Assembly: GCA_945890645.1 (NCBI GenBank)
Contig: CAMDCV010000002.1
Coordinates: 124,001 to 188,000 of the forward strand
Direction of reading: 5' to 3'
DNA: 64,000 nt
Source: Akkermansia muciniphila
GTDB taxonomy: Bacteria > Verrucomicrobiota > Verrucomicrobiia > Verrucomicrobiales > Akkermansiaceae
Shown here piece by piece: positions 1,395 through 39,571 of this stretch. The position numbers and the translations under genes are program-made. The notes under the pieces were generated by a model. The model was not told the origin of the DNA. It made no database searches and saw only the letters and a program-made list of their open reading frames with translations. How positions within the stretch are numbered: the stretch's first letter is position 1; every line of letters begins with the position of its first letter.

Positions 1395-1857
1395 TCACGA
1401 AAAAATCCTCAAAGACTTGAGCATCAGCCAATCCACTGCCGACAGCATCGCCGGACGCATGGAACTCCCCACCATCGCCGTCGAGCTGCTGCTCGGCCAA
1501 CTCATCGCCAAGAAAGAAGTCGAATCCTTCTCACTCGGCACCACCAACCTCCTCGTCTACCGCCTCACCGCCGGAATTCCAACTTCAACCACCATGACCA
1601 TCCTCGTTCGCCAAACCTTTGATTCCTTCAAAGCCCGCATCATCACCAGCACTGGCAAGATTACATTCACAGCCAGTTGCACATCGGGAGAATTAGCCGC
1701 GGCCAAGGCCGTCGTCAAGAAAGCCTATGGTGCGCAGAAATCCGAAACCGTATTCGAAATCAAAGACCCCGCTGAACTCGAAAGACGTGGCATCAACAAA
1801 TACATGGCCAACCCCCAGCGCAAACAAATCTTCCACGTCTTCGGCTTCAAACACTGA
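1387..1857 (+). CDS. Hypothetical early protein of the Mu-like element
   Basis: A 156-residue soluble protein whose start overlaps the MuB-type gene by 8 bp, implying translational coupling. The N-terminal part (about residues 5-50) could form a small helical DNA-binding fold, followed by a beta-rich stretch, but no family is recognised with confidence. Its TGA stop lies inside the first unit of a 7-bp tandem repeat array. In Mu this position holds small early genes such as kil and gam, but no Gam resemblance is visible. Confidence 0.6.
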   Translation: MTNHEKILKDLSISQSTADSIAGRMELPTIAVELLLGQLIAKKEVESFSLGTTNLLVYRLTAGIPTSTTMTILVRQTFDSFKARIITSTGKITFTASCTSGELAAAKAVVKKAYGAQKSETVFEIKDPAELERRGINKYMANPQRKQIFHVFGFKH

Positions 1858-1886
1858 TCACTGCTCACTAACCACTATCCACTTAC
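1852..1886. repeat. Heptamer array A1, five CACTNNN units
   Basis: Five exact-period 7-bp units (CACTGAT, CACTGCT, CACTAAC, CACTATC, CACTTAC) fill the gap between two Mu-element genes, end 5 bp before the next ATG, and contain the previous gene's stop codon. The first 18 bases match array A4 (read on the minus strand) in the sugar operon 34 kb away, so this is a dispersed genomic repeat rather than an element-specific sequence. Confidence 0.9.
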
Positions 1887-33450: not shown

Positions 33451-34695
33451 TCAGAGAAATAGCGGACGGATGTGACGATCTAACAAATTCGTAGTGACGT
33501 TCTTGGCGATGATCACACGATGTTGTTTGAGCGCATCGGTGTAGCGAGAGCCGAGTTGTGCGGCGATCTTGAAGCCGACGTGCAACAACTGGCGGAAGTG
33601 CGGGTTGTAGTCGGGGCAGGTGGGGATGTGGCGCAGGGCGTTGACGTATTGCTCGCTGGTCCACGCGTTCACCGTTTCGGCGCTGGGGAGTTTGCTGTCG
33701 TCGATATCGATTACTGTTGCGTAGGGCTGACAGAGGGCGTCTTTGTAGTCGAGAGCCTTGGCGTAAATATCCTTGGCGAGCGCAAGTGCATCGCCATCAG
33801 CTTCGGCGAGGCCGATGAGTTCTTCGAGCCAGTTGGTGCCGGCCGTTTTGATGTGCAGTCCCGCGCCCGTGCGTTGGATCGCGCGGCGGATGGCAGGGTA
33901 GATGGAGAATTTATCGGAGCCGGAATGGACGCTGAGTTTCAGCGTGGCAGGGAGTTGATAGGCTTTGATCGCGTGGGCGATGACGGCCAGGTCATCGTTG
34001 AATTCTTTTTCAAACTGCGCGACGTCGCCCACGTAATCGACGCCTTTGTTGAAGCGTCCGGTGAATTTCGGTGCGATGGTTTGCACCGGAACTCCGGCAT
34101 CGCTGAGGGCGGCCAGGATGACTAACAACTCAGCGGGTGTTTGCGGGCTGTCGGTTTCATCCATCGAGACTTCGGTGATGAAATCGTCGCTCTTGTGCAT
34201 GATGATGTATTGATAAATCGCACCGGCCTTTTGCGTGGCGAGCAAAAATTTGTTGGCGATGCGGGTGGCTTCCTCTTTCGAAATTTCAAAGGGAGCGTCG
34301 ATGCCATCAATGGAGATCGTGCCGATGAGTTCGGGATGGCGGGCGAGAAATGCAGCAACGTCATCTTCGCTCGCGGGTTGGCCAATGTCATCAGCGACGT
34401 CGAGTGTAAAGAAGTCGCAAGGATTAAGGAAACGATCGACCGTGTTGAGATTGATGTGGTCGGCATCGAGATGGTAGTCGCCTGTCCATCCGAGCGCGGC
34501 AACGGCATGGTCAGCGGCTTCGCGCGTGCCAGATGGCTCGGAGCCGATGATCGTATGCTCGCGATTGGATTTGTTCCAAACCGGTACGATGCAAGCGCCG
34601 AGCATGGCTGCTTCGATAAAAGCGGTGAGTTGAGATTCTGCTTGGTGAGCGAAGCGATCGCCGACGCCGAAAGTGTAGAGTGAGATGGATTTCAT
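33451..34695 (-). CDS. uxaE: Tagaturonate/fructuronate epimerase, UxaE type
   Basis: A 414-residue protein. Conserved pieces recalled for the UxaE family are YHLDADHINLNTVDRFL, YIIMHKSDDFITEVSMDETDSPQTP and the C-terminal end DRHIRPLFL. UxaE interconverts D-tagaturonate and D-fructuronate, feeding hexuronate degradation. It is the last gene of the sugar operon, preceded by an array of four 7-bp repeats ending 3 bp before its ATG. It fits downstream of a dehydrogenase forming D-tagaturonate from L-galactonate. Confidence 0.8.
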   Translation of the reverse strand: MKSISLYTFGVGDRFAHQAESQLTAFIEAAMLGACIVPVWNKSNREHTIIGSEPSGTREAADHAVAALGWTGDYHLDADHINLNTVDRFLNPCDFFTLDVADDIGQPASEDDVAAFLARHPELIGTISIDGIDAPFEISKEEATRIANKFLLATQKAGAIYQYIIMHKSDDFITEVSMDETDSPQTPAELLVILAALSDAGVPVQTIAPKFTGRFNKGVDYVGDVAQFEKEFNDDLAVIAHAIKAYQLPATLKLSVHSGSDKFSIYPAIRRAIQRTGAGLHIKTAGTNWLEELIGLAEADGDALALAKDIYAKALDYKDALCQPYATVIDIDDSKLPSAETVNAWTSEQYVNALRHIPTCPDYNPHFRQLLHVGFKIAAQLGSRYTDALKQHRVIIAKNVTTNLLDRHIRPLFL

Positions 34696-34698
34696 AAT

Positions 34699-34726
34699 AG
34701 TGAATGGTGAGTAGTGAAGAGTGAAT
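34699..34726. repeat. Heptamer array A2, four units, just before uxaE
   Basis: On the minus strand it reads ATTCACT CTTCACT ACTCACC ATTCACT and ends 3 bp before the uxaE ATG. It is inverted relative to array A3 on the other side of the four-helix-bundle gene. Confidence 0.88.
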
Positions 34727-35085
34727 TATTTTGAACGGGAATTTTTTACGATGGTGGTAATGATGGCGATGAGTTGGTTGGCTTCGTCGAGTATATCATG
34801 AAGGCGTGACTTGGGTAGGATTTCAGTTTCTGCCAAAAGTCGCAACCAATAGTGTGTCTCACGTGATTCTTTGCATGAGATATACATTTTGGCGATAAAA
34901 TCTGCTCTGCTTTGACTGCCATTGGCTTCTTCGATGTTTGCTCCAATGGAAGTGCCGGACCTTAAAAGCTGATTGGCGAGAGTTCTGGAAGCTCCAGGAG
35001 TTTTTTCCAGTTCCACGCAAAGCCGAACGATTCGAACGGCAAATTCGAAACTGCGCTGCTTAATATCCGGTGGAATTTCCGACAT
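34726..35085 (-). CDS. Four-helix-bundle protein (23S rRNA intervening-sequence / S23 family)
   Basis: A 119-residue protein with the family pattern FEFAVRIVRLCVELE, the loop RSGTSIGANIEEANGSQSRADFIAKMYIS and ESRETHYWLRLLAETE. Relatives are encoded inside intervening sequences of 23S rRNA genes and as standalone genes of unknown function; the fold is also shared with the Avd accessory protein of diversity-generating retroelements. It sits within a sugar catabolic operon to which it has no obvious link and is bounded on both sides by inverted heptamer arrays (A2 and A3), so it looks like an inserted cassette. Confidence 0.9.
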   Translation of the reverse strand: MSEIPPDIKQRSFEFAVRIVRLCVELEKTPGASRTLANQLLRSGTSIGANIEEANGSQSRADFIAKMYISCKESRETHYWLRLLAETEILPKSRLHDILDEANQLIAIITTIVKNSRSK

Positions 35086-35089
35086 GATT

Positions 35090-35117
35090 TTTCACTACTC
35101 ACTCTTCATCATTCACT
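35090..35117. repeat. Heptamer array A3, four units, overlapping the end of the dehydrogenase gene
   Basis: On the plus strand it reads TTTCACT ACTCACT CTTCATC ATTCACT. It covers the last six codons of the zinc dehydrogenase and ends 4 bp from the four-helix-bundle start codon. Its orientation is opposite to A1-like sense arrays A2 and A4 within this operon. Confidence 0.85.
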
Positions 35118-36145
35118 ACTATTATTGCTTTGATAGCGCCGAGGTTGGGGTCGGTAAATTGGGCGAATTTTTGTGGAACTTCGTCAAAGGAAATGCGGTG
35201 GGTGATCCAGAGGTCGGTGTTGATTTTTCCTTCGCGGATGAGGTTGATGATTTCTGGAAAATCGGAGGGGAGGGCATTTCGCGAAGCGAGCAAGGTGAGT
35301 TCGCGGCGGTGGAAAATGGGGGCGTGGGGGAAGGTGAGATCGGAAGTGGTGATGCCAACATAGACGACGCGTCCAGTGAAAGCGGCGAACTCAAAGCAGG
35401 TGGACATCGAGCGCGGTGAACCGGTGGCATCGATGATGACATCGGCGAGCTGGCCTTTGGTGATTTGTTCGAGATCGGCGAGAGGAGAGTCATCAGTCTT
35501 GGCAAGAATGCCCGTTTTAATGCCGAGATTTTGAGCGCAGAAATCGAGTCGGCCTTGCACCATGTCCATGACGATGACGTTCACGCCTTCCATCAGTTTG
35601 AGGAATTCCAGGCAGGCGAGGCCGATCGGGCCAGCGCCGATTACGAGCACGGTTTCGCCGGGCTTGGGATTGCCGCGTTGCACGGCGTGGTAGCCGATGG
35701 CAAGGGTCTCGACGAGTGCGAGTTGATCATAGCTGAGGTCGTTTCCAGGATGAAGTTTACGGGCAGGGACGATGAAGGTTCCTTGGCGCAATCCACCGTT
35801 GTTGTGGACGCCGATTACTTGCACGCCGGGGCAACAGTTCGAATTGCCTTTTTGTGATGTCGGTGAGTCGGGATTGTTCACGTATGGTTCGAGCGAGCAT
35901 TTGTCGCCGAGTTTCACATTGGTAACGCCTGCGCCAACGGCTACGACCTCAAGACCAAGCTCATGGCCGGGAGTGCGTGGGTAGGCAAAGAAAGGAAATT
36001 TTCCGAGGTAGCACGAAAGGTCGGTGCCGCAAATGCCCATGCGATGGGTGCGCACGACGGCCTCGCCGGGAGCAGGAGAAAGTTCGTCGGGTCGGTCGAT
36101 GACGGTGATGATTTTTGGTTCGGTGAATTCGATGGCGGCAGGCAT
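35099..36145 (-). CDS. Zinc-type alcohol dehydrogenase (candidate L-galactonate 5-dehydrogenase)
   Basis: A 348-residue medium-chain dehydrogenase. The catalytic zinc ligands are in GICGTDL and TPGHELGLEV; the Rossmann motif is VLVIGAGPIGLACLEF near residue 170. The structural-zinc loop is reduced (SNCCPG only). Family members oxidise polyols, L-threonine or sugar acids; E. coli LgoD converts L-galactonate to D-tagaturonate. That specific role is inferred here from the operon, which contains an L-galactose-dehydrogenase-like enzyme upstream and a tagaturonate epimerase downstream. The last codons lie in heptamer array A3. Confidence 0.85.
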   Translation of the reverse strand: MPAAIEFTEPKIITVIDRPDELSPAPGEAVVRTHRMGICGTDLSCYLGKFPFFAYPRTPGHELGLEVVAVGAGVTNVKLGDKCSLEPYVNNPDSPTSQKGNSNCCPGVQVIGVHNNGGLRQGTFIVPARKLHPGNDLSYDQLALVETLAIGYHAVQRGNPKPGETVLVIGAGPIGLACLEFLKLMEGVNVIVMDMVQGRLDFCAQNLGIKTGILAKTDDSPLADLEQITKGQLADVIIDATGSPRSMSTCFEFAAFTGRVVYVGITTSDLTFPHAPIFHRRELTLLASRNALPSDFPEIINLIREGKINTDLWITHRISFDEVPQKFAQFTDPNLGAIKAIIVVNDEE

Positions 36146-36148
36146 AAA

Positions 36149-36183
36149 TCAAGTGATGAGTGGTGAGTGAGCAGTGATCAGTG
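36149..36183. repeat. Heptamer array A4, five units, upstream of the dehydrogenase gene
   Basis: On the minus strand it reads CACTGAT CACTGCT CACTCAC CACTCAT CACTTGA, exact period 7, filling the gap between the aldo/keto reductase stop and the dehydrogenase ATG. Its first 18 bases equal those of A1. Confidence 0.92.
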
Positions 36184-36190
36184 GAAGAAG

Positions 36191-37129
36191 TCAGTTGTTT
36201 TCGGGGAGACCTTCTTTGTGGCCGAGGTTTTTGACGGGGGCGAAAATGTTGAGCACTTCCTCTAACAGATTTTGATCCATTGGCTCGGCAAGCCATTGGG
36301 CCCATTTGGCGATGTTTTTGGGATTGGCGGAGCCGGCGACTGTCGAGGTGATGGCGGGATTAGCGCAGGAATATTGCAGGGCGAGTTGGGCGATATCGAC
36401 GCCGTTATCGGCGCAGAGTTTCGCGGCGGCGCGGGCGGCGGCTTTGACTTCTTCTGGCTCTTTTAGCCAGACGGGCAATTCGGCATTTGTAAGGAGTCGT
36501 GCGGAGAATGGTCCGGCATTGATCGCACCGATGCCCTTGGTTTGCAGGCGCGGCAGCAAGTGATCGGCGAAGCGGGTGTTCTGCAGGGTATATTGGTTGT
36601 AGGAAAGCACGCAGTCGATGTCGTTCTCGACGTGATCGAGCACGGTGTCGAAGGTTTTCATGGGGTAACAAGAAAAGCCGATCGCTTTAACGATACCGCG
36701 TTCCTTGAGCTTCAGGACTGCGGGAATTGTCTCTTCCCAAATCTGGGGCAGCGTTACAAATTCGACGTCGTGCAGGAGCAGCACGTCGAGATGATCGGTG
36801 CCGAGTCGATGCATTGAAACGTGCACCGATTCTTCGACGCGCTTGGCAGAAAAATCGAAATGTTCCAGCGAGTAGCGTCCGAGCTTGGTGCCGAGCAGAT
36901 AGTTTTCGCGCTTGTGTTGTTTGAGCGCGATACCTAACAAAACTTCCGACATGCCGCGTCCGTAAAACGGCGAGGTGTCTATGAAATTCATGCCATGCTC
37001 CAATGCGGTGTGCACGGACTGTAGCGCTTCATTGACATCGACCGAGCGGAATTCCGCGCCTAACGAAGAAGCGCCGAATGAGAGAATGGGCAGTTGCAAA
37101 CCCGAGTTGCCTAAAGGACGTGTTTCCAT
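36191..37129 (-). CDS. Aldo/keto reductase, L-galactose/L-fucose dehydrogenase-like
   Basis: A 312-residue (alpha/beta)8 enzyme. The catalytic tetrad is visible: Asp and Tyr in NFIDTSPFYGRGMSE, Lys in LLGTKLGRY and His in LLLHDVEF. The opening RPLGNSGLQLPILSFGASSLG and the piece IGAINAGPFSARLL follow plant L-galactose dehydrogenase and bacterial L-fucose dehydrogenase rather than the reductase branch. The product would be an L-galactono- (or L-fucono-) lactone. It starts 7 bp after the TIM-barrel gene and is followed by array A4 and the dehydrogenase gene. Confidence 0.83.
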   Translation of the reverse strand: METRPLGNSGLQLPILSFGASSLGAEFRSVDVNEALQSVHTALEHGMNFIDTSPFYGRGMSEVLLGIALKQHKRENYLLGTKLGRYSLEHFDFSAKRVEESVHVSMHRLGTDHLDVLLLHDVEFVTLPQIWEETIPAVLKLKERGIVKAIGFSCYPMKTFDTVLDHVENDIDCVLSYNQYTLQNTRFADHLLPRLQTKGIGAINAGPFSARLLTNAELPVWLKEPEEVKAAARAAAKLCADNGVDIAQLALQYSCANPAITSTVAGSANPKNIAKWAQWLAEPMDQNLLEEVLNIFAPVKNLGHKEGLPENN

Positions 37130-37135
37130 AATGAA

Positions 37136-37939
37136 TCAAAGGATAGTCGATTGAATGAACTGGGCCGCGGCTTCGTCAGCAGTCGGCAAGGGAAGAATTT
37201 CCGCAGAAAGGTAACCCGCATAGCCGAGTTGATGCAATAGCAGCAAGAGCGGTTTGTAATCGCTGTGCCCGAAGCCCATCGCTCGACGATTGCTATCAGC
37301 AAAATGGATGTGACCGATGTGAGCGATGTTTTCTGCGAGCGCCTGTTCCATTGATGCTTCTTCGATGTTCATGTGGAAGAAGTCGGCGAGCAAGGTGACG
37401 TTATCGAGTTGATGCTTCACGAGAAACGCTGTGGCATCGGAGGAGCGATTGAAAAGATTCGTTTCGTAACGATTGAGCGGTTCGTAGATGAACTTCACGT
37501 TATGCTCAACGGCGCGGGCGGAGATTACTTTTAAAGCATTAGCGAGATAACTAAGCGCGGTCTCGTGTGGCACCGCGGCACTGCTGCGGCCTTGCATGGA
37601 ACCGAGGATCGCCGGGGCATCGAGTTGTCCGCCGAAATCGACAAGTTCGAGGATAAACTCTAACGCTTTTTGGCGGATTGCTGGGTCGGCATCGGTGAGG
37701 GTGAGACCATGTTTTACCATGCCCGCGCCTGTGCCGACGGCAGCGATCAACAAACCGTGTTGCTCTTGCAGTTGTTTGATTTCGGCGACGCTTACTTCGT
37801 GGGCTGAGGGTAGAAATAACTCCACGGCGTCAAAGCCGTGTTGTTTGGCCTTCGCAAAGCCGATTGGCAGTTCATCGTGAAAAACGAAGGGTCCAGCCGC
37901 CGCTTCCGCGACACGACATAAGGTGACGGCGGTTTTCAT
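37136..37939 (-). CDS. Xylose-isomerase-like TIM barrel sugar epimerase/isomerase
   Basis: A 267-residue protein of the AP-endonuclease-2/xylose-isomerase-like superfamily. The metal ligands expected for tagatose 3-epimerase relatives are present in order: Glu in FIYEPLNRYETN, Asp in LLADFFHMNIEE, His in IGHIHFADSNRR and Glu in LSAEILP. It probably isomerises or epimerises a keto-sugar of the pathway. A lactonase is otherwise missing, but this fold is not known for that. The start codon overlaps the mutarotase stop by one base (TAATG). Confidence 0.8.
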   Translation of the reverse strand: MKTAVTLCRVAEAAAGPFVFHDELPIGFAKAKQHGFDAVELFLPSAHEVSVAEIKQLQEQHGLLIAAVGTGAGMVKHGLTLTDADPAIRQKALEFILELVDFGGQLDAPAILGSMQGRSSAAVPHETALSYLANALKVISARAVEHNVKFIYEPLNRYETNLFNRSSDATAFLVKHQLDNVTLLADFFHMNIEEASMEQALAENIAHIGHIHFADSNRRAMGFGHSDYKPLLLLLHQLGYAGYLSAEILPLPTADEAAAQFIQSTIL

Positions 37940-38328
37940 TATTCTGATTCAAGAATGATGTTGCCGTAGGCGGTAGGGTCGCCCGTGCGGATGAGTCCGA
38001 TTGCATGGGGCACGCGTTTTTTGAAATCGACATGAGCCTCACGGGTGAGGGGAATGTTGCCGAACGATTGGGCAAAACGATCGACGGTTTCCTTCGGATT
38101 GGTGTGGAGAAATTCCTCCGCTTGCCAGATGCGACCGATTTTAAAGTTCGGTTTGAGGAGTTCGAGCACATCGAGCACCATGGGGATGCCCTTGGTGAGG
38201 GAGATGTCCACCGTTTCAATTTCCGGCCAGAAGGGAAAGGCCCAGTCGCAGATGACTAGAGTGTTGGTGTGGCGGATGCGAGCGATGAGCTCGAGCACTT
38301 GCGGGTTGAGAATTCCTGTTTGCAGCAT
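37939..38328 (-). CDS. RbsD/FucU family sugar mutarotase
   Basis: A 129-residue protein, slightly shorter than FucU (140). The catalytic His is in IARIRHTNTLVICDWAFP, which aligns with the GHGDxxVxADAxxP motif of the family although GHGD has become RHTN. RbsD/FucU enzymes interconvert ring forms and anomers of ribose or L-fucose; L-galactose has the same ring configuration as L-fucose. It is the first gene of the sugar operon, 85 bp downstream of dxr. Confidence 0.82.
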   Translation of the reverse strand: MLQTGILNPQVLELIARIRHTNTLVICDWAFPFWPEIETVDISLTKGIPMVLDVLELLKPNFKIGRIWQAEEFLHTNPKETVDRFAQSFGNIPLTREAHVDFKKRVPHAIGLIRTGDPTAYGNIILESE

Positions 38329-38350
38329 AAGTGTAAATGTACTGACACTT
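38329..38350 (-). promoter_or_regulatory. Inverted repeat at the start of the sugar operon
   Basis: AAGTGT and ACACTT are separated by 10 bp and the inner arm abuts the mutarotase ATG. It could be an operator or an RNA hairpin covering the ribosome entry site. A loose TTGTCA-N19-TAGTAT promoter-like pair lies just upstream on the same strand. Confidence 0.35.
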
Positions 38351-38413
38351 TGATACTAACCATGTCGCGCTTGTCACTGACAAAATGCGTCTTATCGGTC
38401 GGTCCAGACGACA

Positions 38414-39571
38414 TTATTGATGAAGTTGTGCGCTGGCGTGAACGCGTGCCCATTGATCCGCTTCGAGGATGGGCTCTAGTTCGGCGGCAGCTTGAATATT
38501 GTGTGCCTGCATGGTTTTTTCGACCATCTGCCAGATGCCTGGGAAGGGGATTCGACCATTGATAAACGCATCGACTGCGATTTCGTTGGCGGCGTTGTAA
38601 ACGGCGGGCAATGTGCCACCGGCAGTGCCCGCCTCGCGGGCGAGTCGTAGAGCCGGGAAATCATTTTCACGAGGAGCGATGAATTCGAGTTTTGCCAACT
38701 CTTCAAAGCGCAAGGGCTTGAGTCCGCCGCGGAGACGTTTGGGCCAGGTGAGTGCGTATTGAATGGGGAAACACATGTCAGTGTGACTCATTTGCGCAAG
38801 CACTGAACCGTCGGTGAATTCCACCATCGAATGGATGATGCTTTGCGGATGGACGATGACATCGATGCGATCCATGCCGATGCCAAATAACCAGCGAGCT
38901 TCGATCATTTCGAGGCCCTTATTGAAAAGTGAGGCTGAGTCGATGGTGATCTTGCGTCCCATCTCCCAAGTGGGATGTTTCAGTGCCTGTGCCAGAGTGA
39001 CAAGAGGCAATTCGTTGGCAGGGGTATTGCGAAAGGGGCCGCCTGAAGCCGTAAGGATCAAGCGTGAAATTTCCGCTTCACCGCCACGATGACCGTCGAG
39101 GCATTGGAAAATCGCATTGTGCTCGCTATCGACTGGCAGCAACTTCACTCCTGCTTGATGCGCTTCACGCGTAACGATTTCTCCTGCCATGACCAAGATT
39201 TCCTTGCTGGCGACGGCGAGATCCTTGCCCGCTCGTATGGCTGCTAGTGCCGGATGCAGGCCGGCGGTGCCGACGATTGCCACTAGCACGGCATCGGCTT
39301 CCGTCAGTGTGGCGACTTCGATTAATCCCTCGGGTCCGGTGTAAATCTTGACGTCTGGAGGTAACAAACCACGCAATACTTCTACCCGTTCGCTTTGATA
39401 GAGTGCCACGTGTTTCACTCCAGTATGCCGCGCTTGATGCGCTAGTTTTTCTACATTGCTGTGTGCGGCGAGTGCGATAATTTTCAACTCCTCCGGTAAG
39501 TCTTCTGCGACTTTTAAAGTCGAGCATCCGATCGAGCCCGTAGAACCTAACAAAACGATTTTTTTGGCCAT
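38414..39571 (-). CDS. dxr: 1-deoxy-D-xylulose 5-phosphate reductoisomerase
   Basis: A 385-residue enzyme of the non-mevalonate isoprenoid pathway that converts DXP to MEP with NADPH. Key pieces are KIVLLGSTGSIGCSTL (NADPH site), PVDSEHNAIFQCL (metal and substrate), LTASGGPFRNTP and EMGRKITIDSASLFNKGLEMIEA. The ATG at 39571 begins the conserved MAKKIVLLGS; the 17 extra residues in the track are not needed. It follows cdsA by 2 bp, an arrangement common in bacteria. Confidence 0.97.
   Translation of the reverse strand: MAKKIVLLGSTGSIGCSTLKVAEDLPEELKIIALAAHSNVEKLAHQARHTGVKHVALYQSERVEVLRGLLPPDVKIYTGPEGLIEVATLTEADAVLVAIVGTAGLHPALAAIRAGKDLAVASKEILVMAGEIVTREAHQAGVKLLPVDSEHNAIFQCLDGHRGGEAEISRLILTASGGPFRNTPANELPLVTLAQALKHPTWEMGRKITIDSASLFNKGLEMIEARWLFGIGMDRIDVIVHPQSIIHSMVEFTDGSVLAQMSHTDMCFPIQYALTWPKRLRGGLKPLRFEELAKLEFIAPRENDFPALRLAREAGTAGGTLPAVYNAANEIAVDAFINGRIPFPGIWQMVEKTMQAHNIQAAAELEPILEADQWARVHASAQLHQ

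Follow-up and report, generated by a model that had tools for sequence, protein, structure and literature searches.

Why would a sugar operon carry, between two of its enzymes, a gene of the family that is encoded in the intervening sequences (IVSs) of 23S rRNA, and why would that gene be bracketed by inverted arrays of a heptamer? The question arises in a stretch of 64,000 nucleotides from Akkermansia muciniphila (contig CAMDCV010000002.1), which we call the window. The preliminary description had reported an S23-family gene between inverted CACTNNN arrays inside an operon for sugar metabolism, and both statements are correct. The 119-amino-acid product of the gene (34726..35085, minus strand), a four-helix bundle, matches PF05635 (23S_rRNA_IVP; E = 1e-23), and the order of genes on the minus strand is aldo/keto reductase, zinc-dependent (zinc-binding) dehydrogenase (35099..36145), S23, and UxaE-type epimerase (33451..34695). 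The gaps on either side of S23 are both occupied by heptamer arrays, which we call arms. On the 5' side in the transcript, an AGTG-type array (approximately 35086..35120, minus strand) overlaps the 3' end of the dehydrogenase's open reading frame; on the 3' side, a CACT-type array (approximately 34696..34727, minus strand) runs to the ATG of the epimerase. Across the unit, the transcript reads GTAGTGAATGATGAAGAGTGAGTAGTGAAAAATC-ATG...TAA-TTCACTCTTCACTACTCACCATTCACTATT-ATG. The 3' end of the dehydrogenase gene has been replaced, and its last codons are encoded by the upstream arm (VVNDEE* in place of EVQ*).

Our best explanation, which we consider fairly probable, is that this is one copy of a widespread, IVS-type operon cassette that resides in mRNA: an S23 gene between inverted arms of about five units, with a pentameric S23 protein that would bind the arms. 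This kind of cassette is apparently widespread and undescribed. In a literature search, with subscription journals and preprints outside its scope, no paper turned up that connects S23 with heptamer arrays. The idea of a cassette was already in the preliminary description, and taken as a whole it is partly supported.

The window itself is rich in this repeat: three consecutive CACT units, with at most two mismatches, match 12 times versus 2.95 expected, and none of 100 shuffles reached 12. The window has solo arrays of exactly five CACT units at 36152..36183 (minus strand, between the aldo/keto reductase and the dehydrogenase and separated from the start codon by 6 bp) and at 1852..1883 (plus strand). 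The cassette's own arms have four units each, one degenerate, and not five. A count by hand had found that the arms can pair at 22 of 28 positions, and the best ungapped pairing that we computed is slightly higher (23 of 28 by Watson-Crick pairs, or 24 with GU pairs). In the predicted fold of the transcript, the arms form a closing stem with 28 pairs (z = -2.36; 1 of 100 shuffles was equally stable). The count by hand came with a caution that any two inverted arrays of this repeat would pair about this well. For the window locus alone, this is fair: the upstream arm pairs at 19 of 28 positions with two other, unrelated arrays of CACT in the window. Because 23 is little better than 19, the local case depends on comparison with other loci.

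The unit of array, S23 gene, and array recurs across phyla, and it recurs in operons. We considered 79 S23 genes from Verrucomicrobiota, Proteobacteria, Bacteroidota, Clostridia, Planctomycetes, and other groups. Arrays with a period of 7 were present within 250 bp upstream of 50 of these genes and within 250 bp downstream of 40, versus 10 of 279 far-window controls (Fisher P = 2e-30 and 8e-22, respectively), and other periods were found 0-5 times. Within the same GTDB family, including genomes of Persicirhabdus and Roseibacillus, there were arrays within 200 bp upstream of 44 of 94 S23 genes and downstream of 39 of 94, versus 0 of 162 (upstream) and 5 of 151 (downstream) for the other genes of the same loci. 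S23 genes are also placed in the sense orientation within operons: both neighbors were codirectional with S23 in 80 of 106 cases, versus 163 of 297 control triplets, an arrangement that is common anyway (55%). A few elements have units of 8 nt, including the S23 gene on contig C28 of this genome. A search of the surveyed loci for conserved 23S motifs found no S23 gene inside a 23S rRNA gene, only one short and spurious match. S23 genes with inverted heptamer arms are also present on several viral contigs (L243, L244, L248, L255, L256, L258, and L260-L262; the heptamer is GAACGTT in L243 and L244).

The preliminary description viewed two kinds of exceptions as signs against a cassette, and both kinds exist. 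First, many of the surveyed S23 genes lack a clear array at the threshold that we used, and of the three copies in this genome, the one on contig C24 (which has a stop codon) has no array. The objection holds for part of the S23 genes, and it does not overturn the cross-phylum association. Second, most arrays in this genome are without S23 genes (about 40 heptamer arrays, few of which accompany S23). Here too the association across phyla stands.

The heptamers vary widely between elements (GGGGTCA, CAACTCT, GTAGCGA, CTGATAA, and so on), while the two arms of an element match each other. The mean score for aligning arms within an element is 34-35, versus 17-18 for arms from different elements, and 71 of 171 elements exceed the 99th percentile of the cross-element pairs. 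If 122 arrays are aligned in the outward direction, considering all rotations, then they share a core of CT, for which A is the commonest preceding base (.81 for C,.75 for T, and.46 for A). The information content is 2.43 bits, versus 1.78 (maximum 1.84) if the order of the columns is permuted. The arms also prefer a particular length. Counting units as successive CT motifs at a spacing of 7 or 8 nt, and after deduplicating arms at 70% identity of S23, 11 downstream arms have four units, 30 have five, and 7 have six (P = 3e-5); for upstream arms, the corresponding numbers are 17, 24, and 9 (P = 0.02). The same preference is seen independently in this genome's own CACT arrays (6 with four units, 19 with five, and 3 with six), almost all of which lack S23, with arrays of fewer than four units being under-sampled by the array search. 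S23 sequences and heptamers are only weakly correlated in their similarity (rho = 0.105; null standard deviation of 0.041), which speaks against a strict recognition of bases outside the core, and we rejected the idea that S23 recognizes the whole heptamer. We also dropped the idea that the period of 7 nt serves to place stop codons in all frames, because several of the heptamers have no stop codon.

To our knowledge, S23 and related four-helix-bundle proteins have no known function, even though they are found in many bacterial phyla and several structures have been solved. The AlphaFold model of S23 (pLDDT of 95) is similar to 2rld (BT_0352; TM of 0.85) and 2gsc (XCC0516; TM of 0.8). A more distant match is to Avd from a phage diversity-generating retroelement (DGR) (4dwl; TM of 0.73, with Avd spanning 0.66-0.73 in our tests), and the model also matches the Avd chains of a DGR ribonucleoprotein (8ub7). 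Among the Foldseek matches, 2gsc, 2rld, and 4dwl have five chains apiece, and PMC4990558 cites a description of XCC0516 as a homopentamer. The agreement between five units per arm and five subunits in the protein family suggests that each subunit has one unit to itself, and a pentameric S23 probably binds the five-unit arms. S23 is under purifying selection: pairwise dN/dS is 0.02-0.17, and it is 0.12 for the window's gene versus its relative in the same-genus genome G023. These ratios are approximate because dS is high and, for many pairs, near saturation.

The preliminary description named the lack of any allele without the cassette as a sign against its idea. This is not the case: cassette-free junctions are present in relatives, and the alleles at orthologous junctions are patchy. 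We compared the dehydrogenase-epimerase junction in ten genomes of the same genus, with G067 outside the allele assignment. The S23 cassette is present in this genome and in G023, and in both of these alleles the arm supplies the final codons of the dehydrogenase. The junction has solo arrays in G033 and G080 and a short spacer in G010 and G059. In G042, G051, and G088 (loci L153, L160, and L162), it holds a different, palindromic repeat (AAGGGATTT.CAATCCCTT...AAGGGATTGCAAATCCCTT).

The junction between nrdB and nrdA is occupied by S23 cassettes in 10 of 30 loci (L295-L324), and many of the other loci are short and empty. The arms of these cassettes fall into three classes (CACTGAT, CTGAAAACTGAACA, and CTTTTTCC), each of which pairs within its class. 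The S23 genes at this site may be mostly inherited in place, in which case the difference between alleles with and without a cassette may reflect loss and not insertion. In G051, a five-unit CACT array lies directly before nrdA; as it is where the downstream arm of S23 would be, it is likely the scar of a lost S23 cassette. The gene upstream of this array is of another type (PDDEXK_3/GxxExxY), which replaces S23 in 6 of the 30 loci (L297, which is on contig C28 of this genome, L298, L300, L301, L303, and L304). We checked three of these six (L297, L298, and L300) against Pfam, and PDDEXK_3 (PF13366) was confirmed. The PDDEXK_3 genes are flanked by inverted short tandem repeats of their own (e.g., CGGATTTACGGATT / AATCCGTAAAATCCGT) and are possibly a sister family of cassettes. 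Across the genera of the family, the recurrent presence of S23 or PDDEXK_3 genes makes this junction a hot spot for cassettes.

The likeness to an rRNA-type IVS, which the preliminary description had proposed, is a matter of anatomy, and the anatomy matches the 23S rRNA IVS of Coxiella, heptamers included. In Coxiella, GACAGAT heptamers precede the S23 ORF, and the IVS has a terminal stem of 28 bp and is excised by RNase III (PMC4990558). The window's cassette shares with the IVSs of Coxiella and Leptospira an S23 ORF within about 430 nt and inverted complementary ends with a stem of about 28 bp (predicted, in the case of the cassette); with Coxiella, heptameric repeats that adjoin the ORF (just upstream of it in Coxiella); and with S23-encoding rRNA IVSs more broadly, a sporadic presence among relatives. 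There are two differences. First, the cassette lies between protein-coding cistrons rather than in a 16S or 23S rRNA gene, so by location it is not an rRNA IVS, even though it is IVS-like in its anatomy. Second, S23p of Coxiella is decaying (PMC4990558), whereas S23 of the window's type is under purifying selection.

The solo arrays also have a precedent. In Beggiatoaceae, cyanobacteria, and Bacteroidetes, repeats of the heptamer TAACTGA are found in the forward orientation a few bases before start codons and have no known partner, and MacGregor suggested in 2015 that the mobile element might be a protein that binds the repeats (PMC4679880). Both they and our arrays are intergenic direct repeats of a heptamer that end near start codons. 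S23, inverted pairs that enclose a gene, and a preference for five units are all absent from the TAACTGA paper. An S23 gene of Vibrio salinus (L229) is bordered by this heptamer (as TTATCAG). MacGregor's repeats look like the solo form of the cassette's arrays.

How might the cassette work? In its usual form, it would have a single S23 gene, inverted arms of about five units of 7-8 nt each, and an (A)CT core, and it would sit in the sense orientation at the junctions of cistrons, as the mRNA-resident counterpart, by anatomy, of the S23-encoding 23S rRNA IVSs. The arms can pair in the RNA and so could form a closing stem. By analogy with the rRNA IVSs, RNase III would cut this stem, releasing the S23 message from those on either side. 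Each S23 subunit most likely contacts one (A)CT/AG unit, so that a ring of five subunits would recognize one arm of five units. The trp RNA-binding attenuation protein, TRAP, is a ring of 11 subunits, each of which binds one GAG or UAG triplet at a fixed spacing; we propose only a likeness in the use of a ring with one short motif per subunit, as the fold of TRAP is unrelated. Recognition of the arm by the ring might serve for autoregulation, for protection, or for mobilization. At least sometimes, a solo five-unit array before a start codon would be the remnant of a cassette that has lost its gene. We infer that the cassettes are mobile and that solo arrays in general are leftovers.

We are less sure of a broader statement, which may well prove wrong: that five-subunit rings of S23 recognize five (A)CU units at a spacing of 7-8 nt, that S23 and its arms form a hitherto unrecognized class of mobile RNA cassettes that live in operons and span phyla, and that both rRNA IVSs and the scattered arrays that precede start codons are special cases of this class or decayed members of it. 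In any case, the cross-phylum link between S23 and the arms joins three problems (the function of S23, the spread of IVSs, and the partner of TAACTGA-type arrays), and the matched five-unit arms provide a concrete and testable ligand for the protein.

Alternatively, S23 might be a stable autoregulatory gene of the operon rather than a mobile one, with a protein that binds arrays in its own leader and in others and controls the translation of the genes that they precede. In this genome, solo arrays mostly stop within 0-10 bp of a gene boundary, and often this is a start codon, as with TAACTGA in Beggiatoaceae (PMC4679880). The purifying selection on S23 and its position at nrdB-nrdA in several genera fit this idea as well. 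On the other hand, the gene boundary can also be the stop codon of a gene on the opposite strand; the presence of S23 at orthologous junctions is patchy; and a simple leader site would not need arms that are inverted and matched. We think that this explanation is unlikely.

It seems quite unlikely that the cassette is a transposon-like unit that relies on a transposase or a reverse transcriptase acting in trans. In such a unit, the arms would be ordinary terminal inverted repeats, and S23 would play an accessory part, as Avd does in DGRs. S23 and Avd do share a four-helix-bundle fold, with five chains in 4dwl; the terminal inverted repeats are matched; and one 29-base arm sequence is dispersed over three genera (11 of 97 genomes, one of which has as many as 41 copies). 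However, Avd is part of a ribonucleoprotein with a reverse transcriptase (8ub7), while the window's S23 has sugar-metabolism genes as its neighbors, without a reverse transcriptase, a template repeat, or a variable repeat. According to the open reading frames and the domain annotation, the cassette contains no gene besides S23, and no reverse transcriptase or transposase adjoins it. Nor did we see, by eye, a target duplication at the dehydrogenase junction; in both respects, the cassette differs from a classical transposon. The cassette also resembles REP/REPIN-RAYT systems, in that there are many solo copies and inverted pairs and few with a protein gene, but its arms are tandem heptamers rather than palindromes and no Y1 transposase is associated. 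There are no arrays at the eight Y1_Tnp (HUH) loci of this genome, so we rejected a link to RAYT.

Finally, it is very unlikely that the arrays are repeats in their own right, either mobile or prone to slippage, which gather at cistron junctions where S23 is merely tolerated: arrays far outnumber S23 genes in this genome, one arm is highly dispersed, and some very long arrays look like slippage, but control genes and windows almost never carry arrays, arms match within each element across unrelated heptamers, and the number of units peaks at five instead of decaying smoothly.

Returning to the cassette that we favor, its downstream arm has a 25-base match elsewhere in this genome (C3:69349), aligning over about 30 bases. 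At that site (L034, 5345-5441), the arm's sequence forms an inverted pair without S23, with about 16 bp between the copies, and lies between two codirectional ORFs. On contig C53 (L036, 3456-3626), the same sequence lies between two other codirectional ORFs and beside a remnant that resembles an arm of a PDDEXK_3 cassette (AATTCTGAAAATTCTGAAATTCTG). Another part of this genome (contig C6, about 36000-39300; L035, 7990-11293) has a dense cluster of unrelated heptamer arrays (AAATCAA, CAATCGA, GGGGTCA, TGTGCTT, and CACTNNN), which includes two short ORFs that are similar to each other.
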